The notes below the pieces were generated by a model that was given only the letters and a program-made list of their open reading frames with translations, did not search any database and was not told the DNA's origin. The position numbers were made by a program, and so were the translations under genes. 36,879 nt of DNA from a virus: the IMG/VR virus record IMGVR_UViG_3300034019_000442, positions 1 to 36,879 of that record. The stretch is one strand, 5' to 3'. This document shows, one piece after another, positions 239 through 36,879 of the stretch. The first letter of the stretch is position 1; each line of letters begins with the position of its first letter.

Positions 239-1540
239 TCACTCGTCGAAGCTGGAGACGCGCGCCGCGATGCTGTGCGCCTCCGAGATGTAGTAGCCGA
301 TCGCGTCGGTGAGGTGCGTGAGGCCCTTGGCCTCGCTGCCCTTCTTGTCGATCTCGCCCGAGCCGCCCTTGAGCAGCGTCACGCCCTCGAAGTCCTTGAC
401 CACGTTGGGCGCGCGCGCAGGGTCCACCAGCAAGCGCACCACGCCGCTCGAGGAACGCAGCCGGGAGTTGACGGCGTTAAGGCGGTCGCGCACGTAGGGC
501 GGCTTCTTGGCCACGCGCCAGCGCAGGCGCTCGCCGAAGGCCGGTACGAGGACCTGCCGCACCAGCTCCCAGTCGGTGCCCTCGGTCTGGCTTGTGTGCC
601 GCGCGCCGCCGGCGGGGTCGCCGTAGAGGTACACGTCGGCGGGATGCTTGCCCCAGTCGGCGACGATCTTGCGGCAGACGGCGGGCGTGTTGCTGTTGCG
701 CGGGATGTGCACCTCGCCGACGACGCACGTGCGCGTCTCGCCGTCGAGGTACTGCTCCTGCATCACGACGGCGGTGCCAGGATCGACGTTGAAGTCGAGG
801 GCGAAGATGAGCGGCTTGGACGGGTCAACGGCCAGCTTGCGCAGGTGGTCGCGCGGGTTCCACGGGTAGTAGGCCAAGCCCTCGAAGCTGACCCACTGCG
901 CTTCGTACTCCTGCGCGAACGTCAGCGGGTCGAGGTCGGCGCGCGCCTGCTCGATCTCGGCAGGGTCCACGACCGTGGCGCTGGTCCACGTGAACGACTC
1001 CCAGCCGGCGCGAGTGCCGGACAGCGAGTAGAGGTCGTAGAACAGGCCGCGACCCTTGGGGCGGCCCGTGAACCATGCCCAGCCAGGCGGGCGCCCTTTC
1101 GTGGACAGCGCAGGCCGGATGCTCTGCTCCCAGCTCTCGCGCTTCACCTCGGCGATTTCGTCGACCACGATGCCGTCGAGCGGCACGCCTTCGATGCGCT
1201 GCGGGCGGTCGAGGCCGACGACCATGAGCTGGCTACCCACCTTGTAGCGGATGGTGAGTTCCGACTCGGACACGCCGGCGACCCACTCGCGCGGCGACAG
1301 TGCCTTCAGGTCGTTCCAGAAGATCCGCTTGGCCTGGTCGCGCGTTGGCGCGGCGGCGACGAAGGTCGGGCGCGCTACGCCGGTGATGCCGGCGAGGGCA
1401 CAGCGGACGAGGTGCCGCTTGCCGCGCTCGGTCTTGCCGCTGCGGCGGCCTGCGGCGACGACGCGGAAGCGCGCCGGTGAGCGGATGAGGCGCAGCTGCT
1501 CGACGTGCGCGTCCAGCGGCGTCCAGCGGTCAGTCAGCAT
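239..1540 (-). CDS. terL: Terminase large subunit
   Basis: This is the ATPase-nuclease that packages DNA into the prohead through the portal. The 433-residue product has a Walker A motif (AAGRRSGKT, residues 29-37) and a Walker B followed by the catalytic acid (GIVVDE, 123-128). The C-terminal RNase H-like nuclease half has its first Asp in FALDFNVDPG (D249), a second near D308 (YGDPAGG) and a third in THLTDAIGYY (about D412). Length and motif order fit the family. The ATG start overlaps the end of the small-terminase gene by 11 bases, and the portal follows after 4 bases. Its subfamily, and hence the packaging mode (cos or headful), cannot be assigned by eye. Confidence 0.95.
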   Translation of the reverse strand: MLTDRWTPLDAHVEQLRLIRSPARFRVVAAGRRSGKTERGKRHLVRCALAGITGVARPTFVAAAPTRDQAKRIFWNDLKALSPREWVAGVSESELTIRYKVGSQLMVVGLDRPQRIEGVPLDGIVVDEIAEVKRESWEQSIRPALSTKGRPPGWAWFTGRPKGRGLFYDLYSLSGTRAGWESFTWTSATVVDPAEIEQARADLDPLTFAQEYEAQWVSFEGLAYYPWNPRDHLRKLAVDPSKPLIFALDFNVDPGTAVVMQEQYLDGETRTCVVGEVHIPRNSNTPAVCRKIVADWGKHPADVYLYGDPAGGARHTSQTEGTDWELVRQVLVPAFGERLRWRVAKKPPYVRDRLNAVNSRLRSSSGVVRLLVDPARAPNVVKDFEGVTLLKGGSGEIDKKGSEAKGLTHLTDAIGYYISEAHSIAARVSSFDE

Positions 1541-5296: not shown

Positions 5297-6175
5297 TCAG
5301 TCGCCGGCGTACCGCGAACTCGGCGGGTAGACCGAGTCCATCGGCGGCGTCGCGGGCGTCGCCGGCGGCGTCGTCATGGCGAGGTGCGCCTCGATCGCGC
5401 CCTCGATCTGCTGCAGTTCGACGAGGGTGCATTCGGACAGCCTTTGGCGCGTGATCTCCTGCTCGCGCATCAGGGCGAACAGCTCGTCGCGCTTGACGCC
5501 GGCGGCCTTGCACCGGTCGGCGATGCGGCGGGCGAGGTTGGCGACCTCGACGGCCTCGGGGTCCGCCGGCGTCGCCGTGATCAGCGCGGGCTTCGGCTCG
5601 GCGGGCGCCTGCGCGACCGGCGCGGCCTGCGGCTCGCGCGCCAGCTCGTGCATCTCGTCCTGCTCGTAGCAGCCGAACATCACCTCGCCGGCGAACGCGC
5701 GGCCAGCGGTGGCGACGCAACGGGCCTGCAGCATCGTCTGCGGGTACTTCCTCCACGGGTCCTTGCCGCCCCACAGGCCGGCGGCCTGCGCGCGGGCCTT
5801 GTCCCAGGTCTCGACGTGGACCTCGCCAGCAGGCGACGTGAGGCGCAGCGTGACGGCCTCGGTCGTGAGCTGCGGCCACTCGACGCGGTAGCCGGCGGCG
5901 CGCAAGCGCGCGATCCAGAAGTCATAGCTGGCCACCGGCTTGCCCTCCACGATGTGGAAGGCGCGCAGGCTGGCCATCGGGCCGACGCCCAGCTCCTGGC
6001 CGGCGAGCACGCACGCCAGGATCTTGCCCGGGTTGCCGAGGTAGGCCCTTGGGATCATGCCGTCGGCCTTCGCCACGGCAGCCGCGAACGTCGTCGCGTC
6101 GGAGATCGTCAGGGGCTGGAAGTCCCGCGCGCGCGGCTGGCGCACGACAGCGGGAACGCTGGTTGCATCGGTCAT
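5297..6175 (-). CDS. recT: RecT-family single-strand annealing protein
   Basis: This protein would anneal complementary single strands and promote strand invasion, working with the adjacent exonuclease. The 292-residue product matches the RecT pattern in IPRAYLGNPGKILACVLAGQ, ELGVGPMASLRAFHIVEGKP and ASYDFWIARLRAAGYRVEW, then WRKYPQTMLQARCVATAGRA and FGCYEQDEM. The C-terminal part (Pro/Ala-rich linker, then a helical segment, then Pro-rich) is variable. The ATG (6175-6173) overlaps the stop of the YqaJ gene by one base, so the two are translationally coupled. With YqaJ this forms a RecE/RecT-like two-component recombination system. No single-strand-binding protein is recognised nearby. Confidence 0.88.
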   Translation of the reverse strand: MTDATSVPAVVRQPRARDFQPLTISDATTFAAAVAKADGMIPRAYLGNPGKILACVLAGQELGVGPMASLRAFHIVEGKPVASYDFWIARLRAAGYRVEWPQLTTEAVTLRLTSPAGEVHVETWDKARAQAAGLWGGKDPWRKYPQTMLQARCVATAGRAFAGEVMFGCYEQDEMHELAREPQAAPVAQAPAEPKPALITATPADPEAVEVANLARRIADRCKAAGVKRDELFALMREQEITRQRLSECTLVELQQIEGAIEAHLAMTTPPATPATPPMDSVYPPSSRYAGD

Positions 6176-7068
6176 CAGAGGTCTCTCCAGTTCTTGGCCA
6201 CCGTGAGGGAACGGTAGCTGGTGGGCTGCACCGACGTGGTGTAGCCCGCACGGGTCACGACTCTACTGCTCACGATCGGCTTTCCGCTCAGAAATCCGAT
6301 CGCGTGCTCGGCGTCGCCGAGCGTGTTGCGGATCTGCAGCTCGACGGCCTCGACCTGCGCGTCGAGCGTGCCGATCTGCTCCTTGAGCTGCTCGCGCTGG
6401 CCGAGCAGCTCGACGATGGCGTCCGTGGCCGGGATCGTCTTGCCCTCGGCGGCGTAGGCGTTGCGGCGCGCGTCGGCGAGGTCGGTCGCCGGCGGCGGCG
6501 TCATGGTCACGACGTACTGCCGCCACCACGCTTCGACCTGCGAGTGCAGGCGTCGGCCTAGCTCCGCGTCATGGCGGAACGGCACGGCCTCGACGCCGAG
6601 GTACTCAACGATCTCGCGCGGCGTCAGGCCGACGATGGCGCGCATGTCCTCGGGCCACGTCAGGACGAGGAACTCGCCCTCCTCCAGGTCGAGCACGTCG
6701 AGGTACCACTGCGCCTGGACGCGGTAGTAGTCGGGGATCGTGCCACCCCAGGCCTTGCTGGTCGTCTTGACCTCCAGCAGCGTCTGCCAGCCGTCGGCGT
6801 TGGTCGCCAGAGCATCGGGCGAGGCGTGGCGCCATCCGGCGATGGTCGGCCCTGGTGCCACCTGCAACTCGTGCGTCCGGTGCGTCTCGGCCCATGCGTC
6901 GAGGATGGGCAGCTCCATGCGCAGGCCGGCGCGCATCGCCGGCGTGTCGCGCTCGTCGCGGACGCCGAGGGCCTTCTCGCGCCACACGTCGAGCGGCGTG
7001 CGCCAAGGCGACAGGCCGAGGATGGCGGCGACATCGCTGCCGCCGACGGTCTTGGTGCGGTCGAGCAT
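6175..7068 (-). CDS. YqaJ-family recombination exonuclease
   Basis: The 297-residue product is a PD-(D/E)XK nuclease of the lambda-exonuclease/YqaJ type. It starts with VGGSDVAAILGLSPWRTPLDVW, the N-terminal family signature. E52 (RMELPI), D86 (ASPDAL), E99 and K101 (LLEVKT) and Gln 118/120 (RVQAQWY) form the catalytic set. A C-terminal coiled coil (about 225-255, LGQREQLKEQIGTLDAQVEA) follows. The ATG at 7068-7066 is chosen because the frame upstream only shadows the preceding small genes; it begins 2 bases after the stop of a membrane micro-protein gene. It would resect double-stranded ends for RecT. Such pairs commonly support recombination-dependent replication and concatemer formation. 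Confidence 0.9.
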   Translation of the reverse strand: MLDRTKTVGGSDVAAILGLSPWRTPLDVWREKALGVRDERDTPAMRAGLRMELPILDAWAETHRTHELQVAPGPTIAGWRHASPDALATNADGWQTLLEVKTTSKAWGGTIPDYYRVQAQWYLDVLDLEEGEFLVLTWPEDMRAIVGLTPREIVEYLGVEAVPFRHDAELGRRLHSQVEAWWRQYVVTMTPPPATDLADARRNAYAAEGKTIPATDAIVELLGQREQLKEQIGTLDAQVEAVELQIRNTLGDAEHAIGFLSGKPIVSSRVVTRAGYTTSVQPTSYRSLTVAKNWRDL

Positions 7069-7070
7069 GG

Positions 7071-7169
7071 TCAGGCCGTCGGGGTCAGGAGGTAGAGGAG
7101 GAACAGCAGGACGGCTAGGAGGCCAGCGCAGACGGCCTCCAGCGTCGCGGGATCGCGGCGGCGGCTCAC
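7071..7169 (-). CDS. 32-residue single-pass membrane peptide
   Basis: The GTG at 7169-7167 overlaps the stop of the upstream gene (GTGA), and the TGA at 7073-7071 lies 2 bases before the YqaJ start, so the frame fills the gap exactly. The peptide is VSRRRDPATLEAVC followed by a run of hydrophobic residues (AGLLAVLLFLLYLLT) and a short PTA tail. A positively charged N-terminus followed by one transmembrane helix predicts an N-in orientation. I know no family for it. It resembles in layout the 41-residue peptide at 11083-11208. The coupling signals support a real gene; no function can be given. Confidence 0.6.
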   Translation of the reverse strand: MSRRRDPATLEAVCAGLLAVLLFLLYLLTPTA

Positions 7170-7414
7170 GGCTTGGCCTCCTGCTCCAGCCTGGTCGGAA
7201 GCGTTTCGCCCAGCACGCGCAGGCAGTACCACGACCAGGCCGAGTACAGATCCTGACGCGCTTGGGCGATCTGCCCCAAGTCGAACGCCTCGCACTTCGA
7301 CATTGCGTCTCGGGCATCGCCGTAGAGCGACGGCAGGTCGCGGATCAGCGGCCACAGCTCGCGCAGGGCCTTGGCCGCGTCGAGGTGCTTCTGCATGTTG
7401 GGCGTGTCGATCAC
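7166..7414 (-). CDS. Small hypothetical protein (82 aa)
   Basis: The GTG start (7414-7412) overlaps the stop of the upstream gene as GTGA; an in-frame ATG (NMQKHL) lies six codons later. The product is helical (MQKHLDAAKALRELWPLIRD, then an Ala/Gln/Arg-rich segment) with two cysteines and several tryptophans, and no recognisable domain. It lies in the coupled run of small genes that leads to YqaJ and RecT, under the promoter at 7612-7640. I do not recognise the family. Confidence 0.68.
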   Translation of the reverse strand: MIDTPNMQKHLDAAKALRELWPLIRDLPSLYGDARDAMSKCEAFDLGQIAQARQDLYSAWSWYCLRVLGETLPTRLEQEAKP

Positions 7415-7587
7415 AGCTCGCCCTCCTGCAGGTGCCAGTACAGGCGGCGCACTTCGGACACGCCGGCGCGCGCGTCCTTCTCGGCTGCGATCTCGCAGGC
7501 GATGCGCAGCGTCTCCTCGTCGCCTTCGTCCAGCGCCAGATGGCGCAGCTCGTCGAACATCTCCGCTTCGGTCATTCGCTTCAGCAT
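7411..7587 (-). CDS. Small hypothetical protein (58 aa)
   Basis: The ATG at 7587-7585 is chosen because AAGGAGACCGACC, a strong ribosome-binding site, lies directly upstream; the frame remains open further up only through the promoter sequence. The product is acidic and helical (MTEAEMFDELRHLALDEGDE, then ETLRIACEIAAEKDARAG). It is the first gene after the promoter at 7612-7640, with a predicted leader of about 18 bases. No family is recognised. Confidence 0.7.
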   Translation of the reverse strand: MLKRMTEAEMFDELRHLALDEGDEETLRIACEIAAEKDARAGVSEVRRLYWHLQEGEL

Positions 7588-7611
7588 GGTCGGTCTCCTT
7601 GAGGGGTGGTC

Positions 7612-7640
7612 GGTATACGGAATCGGAATCGGCATCGCAA
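7612..7640 (-). promoter_or_regulatory. Sigma-70-like promoter with hexamer-repeat spacer (P2)
   Basis: On the minus strand TTGCGA (7640-7635) and TATACC (7617-7612) are separated by exactly 17 bases. The spacer and its edges consist of CGATGC, CGATTC and CGATTC repeats. The same architecture recurs at 8479-8507 and 10948-10976. Transcription should begin near 7605 and run into the small genes, YqaJ and RecT. The -35 region overlaps the stop codon of the diguanylate cyclase gene. Confidence 0.72.
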
Positions 7641-7642
7641 GC

Positions 7643-8206
7643 TTAATCGGCGAGCGTCGCGCGGGCGTCGGCGTGCAGGCCGTAGCGGGCCTTCGCGTCG
7701 GCCTTGTCGAGCTGCATGCGGCGCTGGGCCTCGGCGATGACGGGCGCCAGGTCCTGGTACTTCATCGCGCCGGTGCGCGTCGGCCACGCGACGCCGATGG
7801 CGGCGAAGACCGCGATGCCGGGCGAAACGTGCGTCAGGCCGAACACGTCGCGGATGCGGTCAGCGACTGCCATGGCCATGCTGTGCCCGCTCTGCTTCTG
7901 CAGCACGACGACGAACTCGTCGCCGCCGACGCGGAAGGCGTGGTCGTAGTCGCGGATGCTGGCTGCCAGCCGACGCAGCGCGGCGTCGCCGGCGTCGTGG
8001 CCGAGGTGGACGTTGGCGGCGTGCAGGTTGGCCACGTCGATCGCCAGGACGGCGTAGTCGCGCACCGCGCCGGCGACCAGCTCGGCGGCCAGGCCGTCCA
8101 GGCTGCGGCGGTTCGGCAGCCCGGTCAGGTGGTCGGTGCGCGCCGCGCGGCGCTCGGCCTGCAGCAGCTCGCGCAGGCGGATGATCTCGCGTTGGTAGGG
8201 GTTCAT
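7643..8206 (-). CDS. GGDEF-domain diguanylate cyclase
   Basis: This small enzyme should join two GTP molecules into cyclic di-GMP. The 187-residue product is a short N-terminal helix plus a GGDEF domain: DHLTGLPNRR (25-34), GHDAGD (69-74) and RVGGDEF (92-98). In terms of PleD-type enzymes, the metal ligands (D57 and D96 of GGDEF) and guanine-binding residues (N65, D74) are present, and RDYD (85-88) sits at the exact position of the RxxD inhibitory site. Departures from consensus are A59 for the second Asp of DxD, L61-H62 for Phe-Lys and V66 for Asp. No sensor, receiver or membrane domain is attached. The gene starts one base after the 75-residue gene that follows promoter 8479-8507, so early expression is expected. 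Activity is likely but not certain. Confidence 0.9.
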   Translation of the reverse strand: MNPYQREIIRLRELLQAERRAARTDHLTGLPNRRSLDGLAAELVAGAVRDYAVLAIDVANLHAANVHLGHDAGDAALRRLAASIRDYDHAFRVGGDEFVVVLQKQSGHSMAMAVADRIRDVFGLTHVSPGIAVFAAIGVAWPTRTGAMKYQDLAPVIAEAQRRMQLDKADAKARYGLHADARATLAD

Positions 8207-8207
8207 C

Positions 8208-8435
8208 TCAGCGCCCCTGCGTCATGTAGATGATTTCGCCGCTCTCGTGGACGACGAGCCAGTCGTTGTCGCCCTCCAGCGCCGCCGCTAGATCGGCCAC
8301 CGTCTCGACGCGCGCACGGATGCGCTCTAGGCGCTGGTACTCGCGCGCGGCCTCGTCGGCCGTGGCCGCGAGGATGGTGCGGCTGCCACTGCTGTCTGCG
8401 ATGCGGTAGGCCTTCTGCGTCGTCTTCTTCGTCAT
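8208..8435 (-). CDS. Small hypothetical protein (75 aa)
   Basis: The ATG at 8435 is preceded by GGAAACCTGACC, a variant of the leader used by other early genes, and is the first start after promoter 8479-8507. The product has a basic N-terminus, then a helical segment rich in Glu and Arg (DEAAREYQRLERIRARVETV) and a short strand-like end (DWLVVHESGEIIYMTQ). No known family is recognised. It is co-transcribed and closely spaced (1 base) with the diguanylate cyclase, so the two proteins are made together. Whether they interact is unknown. Confidence 0.72.
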   Translation of the reverse strand: MTKKTTQKAYRIADSSGSRTILAATADEAAREYQRLERIRARVETVADLAAALEGDNDWLVVHESGEIIYMTQGR

Positions 8436-8546: not shown

Positions 8547-8951
8547 CTAGATCCGGTCGATGACGACGGCGCAGCCTGGGGCCTCGGTGCCCTGGACGTA
8601 GATCTTCTGCACCACCATCCGGGCAACCTGCGCATCGTCGCACCAGATGCCGGCGTCGCCCAGCGCGTCCAGGACGGCCTTGGCCAGGTTGTCGGCGTCG
8701 GGCTTGGTCGTGTGCCACACGTCGACCTTGCGCGACTTGGGGCGCGGCATCAGGAACGTCAGATGCACCGACAACGGACCACGCAGCGGCTCCGGCGTCG
8801 AGCACTTCGCCAACGCTGCGCGCCGCACCTCGGCCTTCCAGCCGTCGGCCGTGTCCGGCGTGTAGACGCCCGCGTGCCGGCCTCGCGCGAACGCCTTGAC
8901 GCGCGGCTGCGCCTTCGGCGTGCCCTCGACCCAGAACTCCAGGGCGCTCAC
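8547..8951 (-). CDS. rusA: RusA-family Holliday junction resolvase
   Basis: This enzyme cuts four-way DNA junctions produced by recombination. The 134-residue product has the RusA core: FWVEGTPKAQPR near the N-terminus, then TTKPDADNLAKAVLDALGDA (81-100) and WCDDAQVARM (103-112). The acidic residues D85, D87, D95 and D105/D106 and K91 correspond to the metal-binding and catalytic set. The GTG start (8951-8949) overlaps the stop of the upstream gene as GTGA; the open frame further upstream only shadows neighbours. It complements YqaJ and RecT in processing branched replication intermediates before packaging. Confidence 0.92.
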   Translation of the reverse strand: MSALEFWVEGTPKAQPRVKAFARGRHAGVYTPDTADGWKAEVRRAALAKCSTPEPLRGPLSVHLTFLMPRPKSRKVDVWHTTKPDADNLAKAVLDALGDAGIWCDDAQVARMVVQKIYVQGTEAPGCAVVIDRI

Positions 8952-9358
8952 GTCACCCTCCAGACGATCGCGTGGCGCCCGCTGCTGCGCTGCCGCCGCA
9001 TGCCGCTGTCCTCGACCAGGCCGCACAGCACCAGCTCGGCGCGGCGCGTGCGGATGCCGCTGGCCGACTGCATCGGCGCGCTGCTGCTGCGGTAGGCGTC
9101 GATGATGTCCTCGTCGCTGCCGCCGCCGATCGCGCGGATGATGTCGAGCACGGCCTGCCGCTTCTCGGTCATCTCGCCGATCGATCGCGCGGCATCGTGC
9201 GAGGTGTCGGGGTCGGTGCTGCGCGCGCGGGCTTCGAGCTGCTGGTGAATCCAGCCGGCCATGGCCTGCACCTCGTCCTGCGTCGCCAGCTCGGGGTAGC
9301 GGGCCAGCGTCTGCAGGCGGAACGGCGACGGCAGGCGGATGCGGTCGGCGGTGGTCAC
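8948..9358 (-). CDS. Winged-helix-like phage protein
   Basis: The 136-residue product includes STDPDTSHDAARSIGEMTEK and SGIRTRRAELVLCGLVEDSG. This pair of motifs is common in small phage proteins with a winged helix-turn-helix fold: RTRRAELV.CGLV is the recognition-helix region, and GRHAIVWRV the wing strand. It lies just before RusA, overlapping it by four bases, in the early operon. It may bind DNA as a regulator, but no operator can be inferred. The start ATG overlaps the upstream gene's stop. Confidence 0.72.
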   Translation of the reverse strand: MTTADRIRLPSPFRLQTLARYPELATQDEVQAMAGWIHQQLEARARSTDPDTSHDAARSIGEMTEKRQAVLDIIRAIGGGSDEDIIDAYRSSSAPMQSASGIRTRRAELVLCGLVEDSGMRRQRSSGRHAIVWRVT

Positions 9359-9723
9359 GGCGTCTCCTTGGCGTAGGGATGTTGCAGCGCCCGCCGCACG
9401 ATGGCGACAAGGGCTTCGGCTTGCTGTCGCTGTGCTTCAACTACGGCGGGCGTCCAATCGACTTCGCACCGTGAATCGGCGGCGCGTGCAGCCGCCCAGC
9501 ACAGCCAGACCTCGGCCCGGTTTCGGTCGACAACGGCACCGCGAAGCAACGGTTGCGCTCGCATCCGGGCTGCGTACTGCGCAGTGCCCTGCGACACGAT
9601 CGCGCGCTCAACGAGCCGCTCGCACTCGGCGATCCACTCGTCGCGGATGGCGTCGAAGTCGATGGCCGTGGAACCGCGCATCGTGAGGGCGTCGCAGAGC
9701 CACTGCGGAAAGGCGGTGGTCAC
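9355..9723 (-). CDS. Hypothetical protein (122 aa)
   Basis: The GTG at 9723-9721 overlaps the stop of the upstream gene as GTGA and is preferred to an upstream in-frame start that only reads through the neighbour. The product (VTTAFPQWLCDALTM...) is helical and charged, with tryptophans in WLCWAAARAAD and a helix near the C-terminus (VVEAQRQQAEALVAIVRRAL). I do not recognise the family. It sits within the coupled early operon between an Ea22-like gene and the winged-helix gene. Confidence 0.68.
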   Translation of the reverse strand: MTTAFPQWLCDALTMRGSTAIDFDAIRDEWIAECERLVERAIVSQGTAQYAARMRAQPLLRGAVVDRNRAEVWLCWAAARAADSRCEVDWTPAVVEAQRQQAEALVAIVRRALQHPYAKETP

Positions 9724-11301: not shown

Positions 11302-11703
11302 CTACGGCGGCGTGTCGCCCTGCCAGATCACGCGCACCGTGCGGCCGCTCCAGCCGTCGCCGTACACCGAGCTGCCGGCGATCGTCACCTGCTGCACCGA
11401 CACCACCGGCGACGCGATGCGCAGGCCTCGGTAGGCCGTGGCGAGCTGGCCCACGAACGCCAGCAGCGCGGCGTCGCCCTGCTCGCGCGGCGCGTACACG
11501 TCGGCCAGCAGCGTGCCCGTCCAGCGGTAGCGGTCGCCGTTGTTGACCGCGGCGCATCCGTCCACCGACGTGAGTACGCGCATCCACAGCGCGCCGAAGT
11601 CCGGCACCGGGCCGTTGTCGATGACATACGGCACCGAGGCCGCCGCCGCCGCCGTGATGGCCGGCTGCCGCACCGCTTCCAGCAGCTGCTGGTGCGTGGT
11701 CAC
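11302..11703 (-). CDS. Tail-terminator-like protein, second copy
   Basis: The 133-residue product resembles the tail-terminator-like protein at 27467-27880. REQGDAALLAFVGQLATAYR and GLRIASP correspond to RERGDAAVLTLAETVVGAFR and GVELSSP, at similar positions, and both end with a strand segment (TVRVIWQGD; VVRVPFQADY). The family (DUF4128-like) normally caps the tail tube. Here it lies after the lipoprotein and helical genes, far from the tail tube gene. It starts with a GTG overlapping the upstream stop. It may be a duplicated terminator or a protein of related fold with another role. Confidence 0.68.
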   Translation of the reverse strand: MTTHQQLLEAVRQPAITAAAAASVPYVIDNGPVPDFGALWMRVLTSVDGCAAVNNGDRYRWTGTLLADVYAPREQGDAALLAFVGQLATAYRGLRIASPVVSVQQVTIAGSSVYGDGWSGRTVRVIWQGDTPP

Positions 11704-27466: not shown

Positions 27467-27880
27467 TCAAATCGTGTAGTCAGCCTGGAAAGGAACGCGC
27501 ACCACGCGCGTCACAGTGGCCGCCTCAATGTCCAGCGCACCGGACACCGTAGGCGGTGGGAAGAAGCGGATGAGGAACGGCGAGGACAGCTCGACGCCTC
27601 GGAAGGCACCGACCACCGTCTCGGCCAGCGTCAGCACGGCGGCGTCGCCACGCTCGCGCGGCTGCTGCAGGCGTACCTCCATCTCGCCGACCGTGCGCCA
27701 GCGGCGCGGGCGCCCGAGCGTGAGCTGCCGCTCCTCGCGCACCGTGACCGTCACGCGCGCCACAGGCTGGTCGCCGGCAAGGGCCGGGCCGTTGTCGTAG
27801 ACGGTGTCGATGCCGCCCGGCGTGGCCACCTGGGCCATGTAGCGGCCTCGCACGGCCTCGATGGTCTGGGCCTGACTCAT
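27467..27880 (-). CDS. Tail terminator protein (DUF4128-like)
   Basis: The 137-residue product starts at an ATG (27880-27878) overlapping the upstream stop as ATGA. It has MSQAQTIEAVRGRYMAQVAT, RERGDAAVLTLAETVVGAFR, GVELSSPFLIRFFPPP and VTRVVRVPFQADYTI, the layout of tail-terminator-like proteins. These cap the tube and join it to the head. It sits just before the tail tube gene. A divergent relative is encoded at 11302-11703. Confidence 0.78.
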   Translation of the reverse strand: MSQAQTIEAVRGRYMAQVATPGGIDTVYDNGPALAGDQPVARVTVTVREERQLTLGRPRRWRTVGEMEVRLQQPRERGDAAVLTLAETVVGAFRGVELSSPFLIRFFPPPTVSGALDIEAATVTRVVRVPFQADYTI

Positions 27881-28368
27881 CGCAGGCCCCCGAAGACCTG
27901 GCGCAGGACGGCCAGCGTCGGGCCGACGACGCCGTTGGGTGCCTGACGGCTCCACGGCTTCTTGCCAGGGCCGCCGAACTCGATGACCTGGCCGTACGGC
28001 ACAGGGCACGAGAACCACACCAGCGACGGCTGCATGAGCTGGCCGACGGTGGCCATCAGCTCCTGCACGACCTTGGTCCCGTTCGGGTCGACGCCTGGCA
28101 GCTCGCCGCGCGCCGGCACGTTGAAGGACGCCTGCCAGTTGCGGCGCATGTGGCCGCCGAGGTAGCCGCGCCGGCGCAGGATCGGTAGGCCGCGAGCGCG
28201 CCGCCCTGCGTTCATTGCCCAGCCTTCTTCGTTGCCGACCGGCGTGTTGAGCACGAGCTGCCGGATGGCCTCGGCGCAGACGCGCTTCTGGAACTCGACC
28301 GGCTTGCGGCGCAGGTTCTCGTCGGCCCAGTCGTTGAGCCGCGCCACGAACTGCTGCGGGCTGCTCAC
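27877..28368 (-). CDS. Head-tail connector protein (HK97 gp10-like)
   Basis: The 163-residue product starts at GTG 28368-28366, overlapping the preceding stop (GTGA). It has VARLNDWADENLRRKPVEFQ, AIRQLVLNTPVGNEEGWAMN and YGQVIEFGGPGKKPWSRQAP. The P-V..G.(L)...W motif and the later VIEFG with a short C-terminal helix match the HK97 gp10 / neck-protein family. These proteins form the head-tail interface. Its neighbours, a stopper-like protein upstream and a terminator downstream, agree. Confidence 0.8.
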   Translation of the reverse strand: MSSPQQFVARLNDWADENLRRKPVEFQKRVCAEAIRQLVLNTPVGNEEGWAMNAGRRARGLPILRRRGYLGGHMRRNWQASFNVPARGELPGVDPNGTKVVQELMATVGQLMQPSLVWFSCPVPYGQVIEFGGPGKKPWSRQAPNGVVGPTLAVLRQVFGGLR

Positions 28369-35212: not shown

Positions 35213-35433
35213 GGCTCGATCACGTCATGGGTGCTGGGACAGCGGCGCTCCAGCCACGCCGCCCGGGCAAGCGCGAACGTGCGCAGGACGCCGGTGGACG
35301 CGCCGCAGATCTCGCACTTGGCGAGGTAGCCGGTGTGGATCATGCCACCTTCGCGCAGCGGTTCGTAGGTCTTGAACATGAACCCCGTGCCGCCGCAGCG
35401 GCAGGCCTGGTTGAGCTTGCCGTCGCCGATCAC
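35209..35433 (-). CDS. Small zinc-ribbon protein after the portal
   Basis: The 74-residue product has CRCGGTGFMFKT and KCEICGASTGVL, two Cys-x-x-Cys-type pairs about 25 residues apart that can bind one zinc ion, then a helix (TFALARAAWLERRC). The GTG start (35433-35431) overlaps the portal stop as GTGA. Small zinc-ribbon proteins occur between portal and MuF genes in several phages; the role is unknown. Translational coupling suggests a packaging or head-assembly role. Confidence 0.75.
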   Translation of the reverse strand: MIGDGKLNQACRCGGTGFMFKTYEPLREGGMIHTGYLAKCEICGASTGVLRTFALARAAWLERRCPSTHDVIEP

Positions 35434-36879
35434 GTCTCGGCCTCGGCTTCGTCCTCGGCCTCATCGGCTTCGTCCTCCTCGTCCTCCGCCTCGGCGGCTG
35501 GCGCCTGCCGGTCGCGCTCGACGCTGGCGAGCATCGCCTGCATCTGCGCCTCGACGGTGCGCTCGCGGCCCAGCTCGACCTGCGCGGCCAACGCCTCGGG
35601 GTCGTCGACCGTGGACAGGACGCCGCGCACCGCGAGCTCGCGCAGGCCGACGGCGAGCGGGATCTGGCCGGCGGTCATCAGGCCCTGGATCACCGGCACG
35701 TCCTGCGCCTTGCCCGACAGCAGCGACGAGTCCCGGTAGAGCGTCCAGTCGAAGTCCTCGGGCAGCTCGACGCCGGCGGCCTCGGCGGCCAGCTCGATGC
35801 CGGCGTAGATGGCCCACTCCAAGCCTTCGATCCACCGCTGCGCCTCGGACTTCTCGTTGGAGTCCGCGCGCACCTCGCCCGTGGCCGTCGCCGGGCCGCC
35901 GACCGCCATCATGGGCTGCATGCCCAGCGCCATGCAGCGTTCCTCGATGCGCTTGATCTCGACCTCGCCGGCGGCCAACGACGTGCCGGCGATCTCGACG
36001 AAGCTGATGTCGAGGTCGCTGCTCGTGTCCGTGAACGTCGAGCCGGGGCCGACCTCGGGCCGCGCCTCGGCGACCGTCGACGACGCGCCGGCGACCTTGA
36101 GGATGGGCGAGCGGCAGTAGTGCAGCGCCTCGCCCTGCATGCTGAGGCTGTTCCAGTGGGCGACGTTCTGCCAGCCCAAGTCCTCCATCGGCGGTTCCCC
36201 GTGCAGCGTCCCGATGCGCTTGGTGTAGCACGCCACGACGGGCACGCGCCCGAATCCGTGCTCGATCGTCTCGCCGAGGCGGTAGCCGCTCAGGTACTCG
36301 CGCGCGGCGTTCTGCTCGCGGTCGGGGTCGTGCTCGCTGCCGCTGCGGTACCAGCGCTCCACGCGCTCAGGCGTCCACCGCTCCACCATGTCGGCCAGCA
36401 CGTCGCCGCCGCCGACGGGCGAGGACTCGTAGTACCAGTTGCGGATGCGCAGCTCGACGACCTCCTCGACGCCGTTCCGCATCCGGGTGCGGCAGCCGAC
36501 GAGGTTGTCCGGGTGCACGCGGCGGAAGTACGGGCGCGCGTCCATGGCGTCGGCCTCGGGCAGCGTGAGGCCAGCCGTCGGCACGTTGTCCACGAGGAAC
36601 AGGCCGAGGCCTCGGTCGATGGCGTCCTCGTAGATCGCCTGGGCGAACGACGACAGCGACGTGCCCTGCCGGTCGGCGTTGGACACCAGGCGGTCCAACG
36701 GCTCCGGCAGCTCGCCGCTGATGGTCGGCGGCTTCATGAACGGCAACGACGCCAGCTTGCGCACCGTGCGGTCGTAGATGGGGAACAGCACCGTGCGCGC
36801 GAGCCGCTGCGCGTAGCGGTCGCGCGTCTTGGCCTCCTTCTTCGTCGCCGGCGTGAACTTGCCGCCGGCGGCTCGCATT
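35430..36879 (-). CDS. Portal protein, main part (DUF4055-like)
   Basis: This holds the last 482 residues of the 513-residue portal; the first 31 are at 143-234. The sequence after RAAGGKFTPATKKEAKTRDR has RTVLFPIYDRTVRKLASLPF, the family's N-terminal helical region, then YFRRVHPDNLVGCRTRMRNG, HWNSLSMQGEALHYCRSPIL and RIEERCMALGMQPMMA, all in DUF4055-like order. A long acidic C-terminal tail (EAEDEEDEADEAEDEAEAET) is unusual. It ends where the zinc-ribbon gene begins (GTGA). An internal Met at 36878 is not the start, since the frame continues across the contig ends. Confidence 0.92.
   Translation of the reverse strand, partial: MRAAGGKFTPATKKEAKTRDRYAQRLARTVLFPIYDRTVRKLASLPFMKPPTISGELPEPLDRLVSNADRQGTSLSSFAQAIYEDAIDRGLGLFLVDNVPTAGLTLPEADAMDARPYFRRVHPDNLVGCRTRMRNGVEEVVELRIRNWYYESSPVGGGDVLADMVERWTPERVERWYRSGSEHDPDREQNAAREYLSGYRLGETIEHGFGRVPVVACYTKRIGTLHGEPPMEDLGWQNVAHWNSLSMQGEALHYCRSPILKVAGASSTVAEARPEVGPGSTFTDTSSDLDISFVEIAGTSLAAGEVEIKRIEERCMALGMQPMMAVGGPATATGEVRADSNEKSEAQRWIEGLEWAIYAGIELAAEAAGVELPEDFDWTLYRDSSLLSGKAQDVPVIQGLMTAGQIPLAVGLRELAVRGVLSTVDDPEALAAQVELGRERTVEAQMQAMLASVERDRQAPAAEAEDEEDEADEAEDEAEAET
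36738..36879. repeat. Terminal direct repeat, right copy (assembly overlap)
   Basis: This is identical to bases 1-142 except for g at 36864 against t at 127. It lies within the portal gene and marks the point at which the circular sequence was opened. Removing one copy gives a unit of about 36,737 bases. Confidence 0.93.

Follow-up and report, generated by a model that had tools for sequence, protein, structure and literature searches.

A Putative Minimal Diguanylate Cyclase With an L-H Active-Site Change, Encoded by a Probably Lytic Phage

Introduction

Stand-alone GGDEF proteins are already known from phages, namely YuA (gp44), the Bordetella Vojvodinavirus phages, SP-15 and phage G, and GGDEF domains also occur within polyvalent proteins of phages and plasmids (Iyer et al., 2017, PMC5512222). 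YuA gp44 and its homologs of Yuavirus and Vojvodinavirus (FP1, CN1, CN2, MW2, LK3) have ∼156 aa, and the gp44 gene, annotated as a diguanylate cyclase with a "putative role in host cell conversion", lies upstream of the terminase and near an exonuclease. LK3 is reported to be temperate, and Bordetella lysogens of this phage over-produce biofilm, an increase that, as far as the available part of that report goes, is not tied to the GGDEF gene by deletion (PMC8471281). SP-15 (SP15_150) and phage G (gp350) are large phages whose GGDEF proteins carry canonical HFK/GFK..ND and GRN/GKN motifs and hydrophobic N-termini. A literature search for phage-encoded cyclases by name returned no paper describing an assay of a phage-encoded GGDEF protein. 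The product of such enzymes matters to phages, as cyclic di-GMP (c-di-GMP) decides susceptibility to some of them: N4 infection requires it (PMC8669472).

The bacterial reference enzymes are PleD, WspR, SiaD, and DgcB, which are regulated by sensor, receiver or stalk parts. Residues D327, N335, and D344 (PleD numbering) are reported as essential in GGDEF domains, N335 and D344 having a guanine-binding role (PMC7288161), and PleD K332 has been called a transition-state stabilizer (PMC12943098). Here we analyze a viral record from IMG/VR (36,879 bases, hereafter the window), in which an earlier note made from the sequence alone had pointed out a diguanylate cyclase gene.

Results and Discussion

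The Protein and Its Locus

The gene reads from 8206 down to 7643 on the minus strand, with an ATG start directly after the stop codon of the upstream ORF (Table 1). Its product matches Pfam PF00990 with 74.2 bits (E 1.3e-20, residues 22-170), above the curated cut-off of 23.8 bits, and a sequence search of solved structures returned 46 chains (best E 4.5e-15) with names that nearly all refer to GGDEF or diguanylate cyclase; judged by these matches, its GGDEF identity is far beyond chance. The AlphaFold model (pLDDT 87.8, pTM 0.82) shows the GGDEF fold and gave 95 PDB matches at E<=0.001 with cyclases on top. The nearest solved folds are SiaD, WspR, GCN4-WspR, a T. maritima GGDEF, DgcB, and PleD, the best matches being small or coiled-coil cyclases (SiaD, WspR, GCN4-WspR, DgcB).

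The architecture is limited to one N-terminal helix and the GGDEF domain, with neither a sensor nor a membrane part, in agreement with the stand-alone, sensor-free protein of 187 residues described before. PleD, WspR, SiaD, and DgcB have the fold, the GGDEF motif and the equivalents of D327, N335, D344, and K442 in common with the phage protein and differ from it in their sensor, receiver or stalk regulation. Residues 1-30 are invariant in an alignment of five close sequences, and the helix is a probable dimerization stalk that would replace the sensor domain.

Table 1. Features of the GGDEF gene and its surroundings in the window.
Feature	Position	Strand	Basis
Stand-alone GGDEF-domain protein, 187 aa	7643..8206	-	ORF, Pfam, solved-chain matches, AlphaFold
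N-terminal helix, residues 3-22	8141..8200	-	DSSP of AlphaFold model
D57-V-A-N-L61-H62: metal Asp D57 and L-H for usual F/L-K (PleD F331-K332)	8021..8038	-	alignments
N65, guanine-binding Asn (PleD N335)	8012..8014	-	alignment; role PMC7288161
D74, guanine-binding Asp (PleD D344)	7985..7987	-	alignment; role PMC7288161
R85xxD88, I-site-like motif	7943..7954	-	sequence; kept in close relatives
GGDEF motif, residues 94-98	7913..7927	-	sequence and alignments
K168...K172, aligned with PleD K442...R446; GRN lost	7691..7705	-	alignment
RusA-type Holliday junction resolvase ORF	8547..9440	-	PF05866, phrog_140; match C-terminal
Upstream small ORF, only in near-identical L002 (variable position)	8208..8435	-	synteny
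Small ORF just downstream of GGDEF	7411..7635	-	conserved position in five related contigs (85-100% identity)
Second small ORF of same block	7166..7414	-	synteny
YqaJ/RecE-type exonuclease ORF, N-terminal start uncertain	6175..7317	-	PF09588, phrog_434
RecT-like ssDNA annealing protein	5297..6175	-	phrog_561
Terminase large subunit, end of same leftward gene series	239..1540	-	phrog_2

Close relatives of the protein (87-100% identity) are encoded on the viral contigs L002, L003, L004, and L005 and on a contig binned with Phycisphaerales (L013). In the related contigs the gene order, where covered, is RusA, a variable gene, GGDEF, two small ORFs, the YqaJ exonuclease, RecT and, further on, the terminase, and the GGDEF gene occupies the same operon place in all those that cover the locus. 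The gene directly upstream (8208-8435) is exchanged among otherwise syntenic relatives while the two downstream ORFs are kept. The start of the RusA ORF is probably overcalled, the match being confined to the C-terminal part. No Pfam, PHROG or PADLOC match was found for the flanking small ORFs tested, and the idea of a partner gene or a defense role for the neighbors was dropped. With RusA, YqaJ, and RecT around it, the GGDEF gene belongs to an operon of DNA metabolism that is probably early in infection, which fits the early-operon placement made in the earlier note.

Among five variants, residues 68-102 show zero amino-acid changes, and pN/pS is 0.08-0.49 over residues 1-102 versus 0.44-0.75 over 103-187: the catalytic half is the most conserved part and the C-terminal half is weakly constrained. 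GC3 of the gene is 96%, like that of other (structural) genes of the phage, and purine-rich, ribosome-binding-like sequences precede the gene in L003 and L004. This pattern of conservation, together with the unchanged place in related contigs, shows that the gene is real and under selection. A GGDEF profile search of records with a terminase <=55% identical gave no match, several of these records being fragments, and no close relatives of the protein were found among isolated phages or plasmids.

Active Site and I-Site

Alignment with PleD bears out the assignment of the GGDEF motif, the two metal-binding positions (D57 for D327, D96 for E370) and the guanine-binding Asn and Asp. D57, N65, D74, and the GGDEF motif are invariant among close relatives, and the equivalents of D327, N335, and D344 are kept as well in a relative of 46% identity (L117) and in eight further phage proteins. 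The departures from PleD near the active site, correctly listed before, are A59 for D329, L61 for F331, H62 for K332, and V66 for D336. The K332 equivalent is thus absent, the histidine in its place being common to the L-H group described below; no equivalent of H62 was seen in solved structures among the few alignments examined. Toward the C-terminus, K168 aligns with the phosphate-binding K442 and K172 with R446, a conservative change, and the usual GRN motif is lost. PleD differs from the phage protein in having K332, GRN and the full I-site.

The inhibitory site had been described as intact. The RxxD motif does stand five residues (HAFRV) before GGDEF and is kept in the 87-100% identical relatives, and R117 aligns with the PleD I-site residue R390. 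Nevertheless, the I-site as read from the alignment is incomplete, because the position of R313, the arginine contributed by the second subunit, is occupied by G46, and the spacing is broken to RxxxD in L117. Feedback control is therefore not to be assumed, and the proposal that activity would be limited by product feedback is weakened. Among the relatives on whose GGDEF and RxxD residues the earlier note had staked its claim, GGDEF is kept, and RxxD fails in part, in L117, which bears on the I-site only.

A Group of Phage Proteins With the L-H Signature

The L-H pair is found in 18 of the ∼99 distinct GGDEF sequences that we collected, 16 of them phage-type, the other two bacterial-looking (L102, L120), so that in these sequences the pair is not strictly phage-specific. 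All 16 phage-type proteins are stand-alone, have at most 200 residues and lie on viral contigs. From this recurrence, the departures near the active site read as a signature common to many stand-alone phage GGDEFs and not as random decay. Bias from the search was checked on loci whose search pattern leaves out the L-H site: L-H occurs there in 11/15 stand-alone proteins versus 1/17 others (Fisher p 1e-4, overstated since the proteins are related).

A tree calculated without the L-H columns places the window clade on one side of a branch together with the other L-H proteins; the support, 81/84, is not strong, but suggests that they form one group. The stand-alone status, the L-H motif and the length of the window protein fit this group. 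Its nearest outside relative, L117 (46% identical), joins the window clade at 97/90 and keeps D..NLH..N and GGDEF, and the phage carrying it is otherwise unrelated: there the GGDEF gene follows a primase and precedes a small terminase. Nine proteins (L071, L073, L078, L080, L117, L122, L139, L143, L144; 148-200 aa) resemble the window protein in having a short N-terminal helix, L-H and the GGDEF motif. Those other than L117 are <30% identical to it, and in them a segment that lies before the C-terminal helix and after GGDEF is missing.

Phage GGDEFs fall into (a) domains of polyvalent proteins, (b) YuA gp44 and Vojvodinavirus homologs, (c) proteins with the canonical FK, e.g., of SP-15 and phage G, and (d) stand-alone L-H proteins including the window clade. 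Such genes had been called uncommon in phages, a view that is not supported: a homologous gene covered >=80% of gp44 in 47 isolated-phage records (YuA-like and Vojvodinavirus), and more occur in polyvalent proteins. The gp44 family, which keeps SLK..ND and has SGDEF/AGDEF, is also stand-alone but distant from the window protein (no tblastn match at E 1e-3), and in the tree it clusters with the polyvalent GGDEFs, apart from the window clade. Kinship to gp44 through phrog_5594 was dropped, as the window protein scores 97 bits, below bacterial controls (155-201 bits), and the tree separates the two. Of the viral proteins, those of phage G and SP-15 match the predicted structure best (TMq 0.72, and TMq 0.64 at 28% identity, respectively), and their canonical motifs and hydrophobic N-termini set them apart from the window protein.

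Polyvalent GGDEFs, in most of which GDEF and the guanine-reading residues are intact as in the window protein, differ from it in belonging, as single domains, to proteins that mostly have 1000-3700 aa, and in carrying SLKWVND and a C-terminal HKxxREAxGxRA. Twelve of our loci (L067, L069, L070, L074, L077, L079, L081, L084, L086, L088, L007, L012) have the GGDEF within polyvalent phage proteins of 1500-3700 aa, many with SLKWVND, [H/R]xSGDEF, and HKxxREAxGxRA where GRN is expected. A C-terminal likeness of the window protein to these domains (DKADxKAR) was seen, but the tree does not back it. Three further small stand-alone GGDEFs on viral contigs (L141, L142, L146; 143-154 aa) have the canonical FK motif. 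A single clade of all phage GGDEFs is not rejected (p-AU 0.123), yet not shown either. The window gene is therefore of a known kind, a stand-alone phage GGDEF, in a variant with a common active-site change; what appears new, going by the alignments, is that many such phage proteins have L-H where F/L-K is usual.

The Phage

The genome encodes a terminase, portal, head morphogenesis protein, scaffold, major head protein, tail and baseplate hub. The two termini of the record (1-142 and 36738-36879), which lie in the portal gene, share 142 bases that differ only at position 127, and terminase and portal follow each other across this junction as they do in L014; the genome therefore looks complete and circularly permuted, although the record lists no end repeat. 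The portal ORF may extend further N-terminally than 35430-36878. The tail-terminator family phrog_179 is matched by two separate ORFs, 11302-11703, which sits among non-structural genes (E 7.5e-9), and 27467-28018 (E 3.2e-12).

No tyrosine integrase, resolvase or HTH_3 repressor was found in the genome, nor any PilZ, EAL or other c-di-GMP domain. A strictly lytic life is likely, unlike that reported for LK3, and for a complete-looking genome without integrase a role in the lytic phase is likelier than lysogenic conversion. L013 (JADCJE010000176.1) belongs to this phage group; the contig, 5.5 kb long and assigned by binning to a Phycisphaerales genome, is probably a misbinned phage contig and possibly a host hint. 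We do not claim Phycisphaerales as the host: the tetranucleotide usage of the contigs of that genome correlates with that of the window at 0.52, versus 0.71 between the halves of the window.

Function

On balance, we consider it probable that the protein is a minimal diguanylate cyclase with which the phage would set host c-di-GMP in a probably lytic infection. As a conserved stand-alone GGDEF with nearly all catalytic residues, it is most likely a working cyclase, c-di-GMP synthesis being the most likely function predicted from its residues. The enzyme would be made early, and its N-terminal helix would hold two copies together, bringing their GGDEF domains, each loaded with GTP, face to face to fuse the two nucleotides into c-di-GMP. 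D57 and the acidic GGDEF residue would hold the metals, N65 and D74 would read the guanine, and K168 and K172 would hold the phosphates, with H62 replacing the usual lysine. Having no sensor, the cyclase would be active whenever made and host c-di-GMP would rise, which may turn the host away from motility or toward surface polysaccharide, or may disturb nucleotide-based signaling, to the benefit of the phage. The nearest phenotypic precedent is the biofilm over-production of the LK3 lysogens (PMC8471281). Points against this function are the changes K332 to H, D329 to A, and F331 to L, the lost GRN, the weak C-terminal constraint and the incomplete I-site.

Several of these points, namely K332 to H and the loss of GRN, would together with the RxxD motif and the kept R117 suit a protein that binds GTP or c-di-GMP instead of making the latter, acting as a sponge or disturbing host cyclases via mixed dimers. 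Degenerate GGDEFs are known c-di-GMP receptors, but these typically lose the GGDEF motif, which is invariant in the window clade, L117, and the L-H relatives. The equivalent of R313 is missing, and RxxD is not kept in L117, so that what is conserved is not binding at the I-site; we regard such a binder as unlikely.

We find it very unlikely that the enzyme makes another guanine-containing product (hybrid cGAMP or a linear dinucleotide) against host nucleotide-based defense, in the way that mCpol/OptS palm enzymes supply the host with decoy dinucleotides. The L-H change does recur among stand-alone phage GGDEFs, palm-fold relatives switch product by single residue swaps (PMC12657218), and an interference of phage GGDEFs with host nucleotide responses has been suggested (PMC5512222), but the guanine-reading N65 and D74 are both canonical and no defense family matches the GGDEF gene or the neighbors tested. 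Least probable is a captured bacterial cyclase in decay and no longer working, as the departures near the active site and the weak constraint past residue 103 might suggest, given the conserved place, the intact frame, the ribosome-binding sites and the strongest constraint in the catalytic half across related contigs.

Beyond the single gene, the stand-alone L-H GGDEFs might represent a phage lineage of nucleotide cyclases in which the changed phosphate site brings a different product or regulation, and which would let a lytic infection overrule the host's control of c-di-GMP or its nucleotide-based defense; we hold this to be quite unlikely. If the cyclase is active, the phage would set the main lifestyle signal of its bacterium while growing lytically, and the recurrent replacement of lysine by histidine would make it easy to test which residues of its active site a cyclase really requires.
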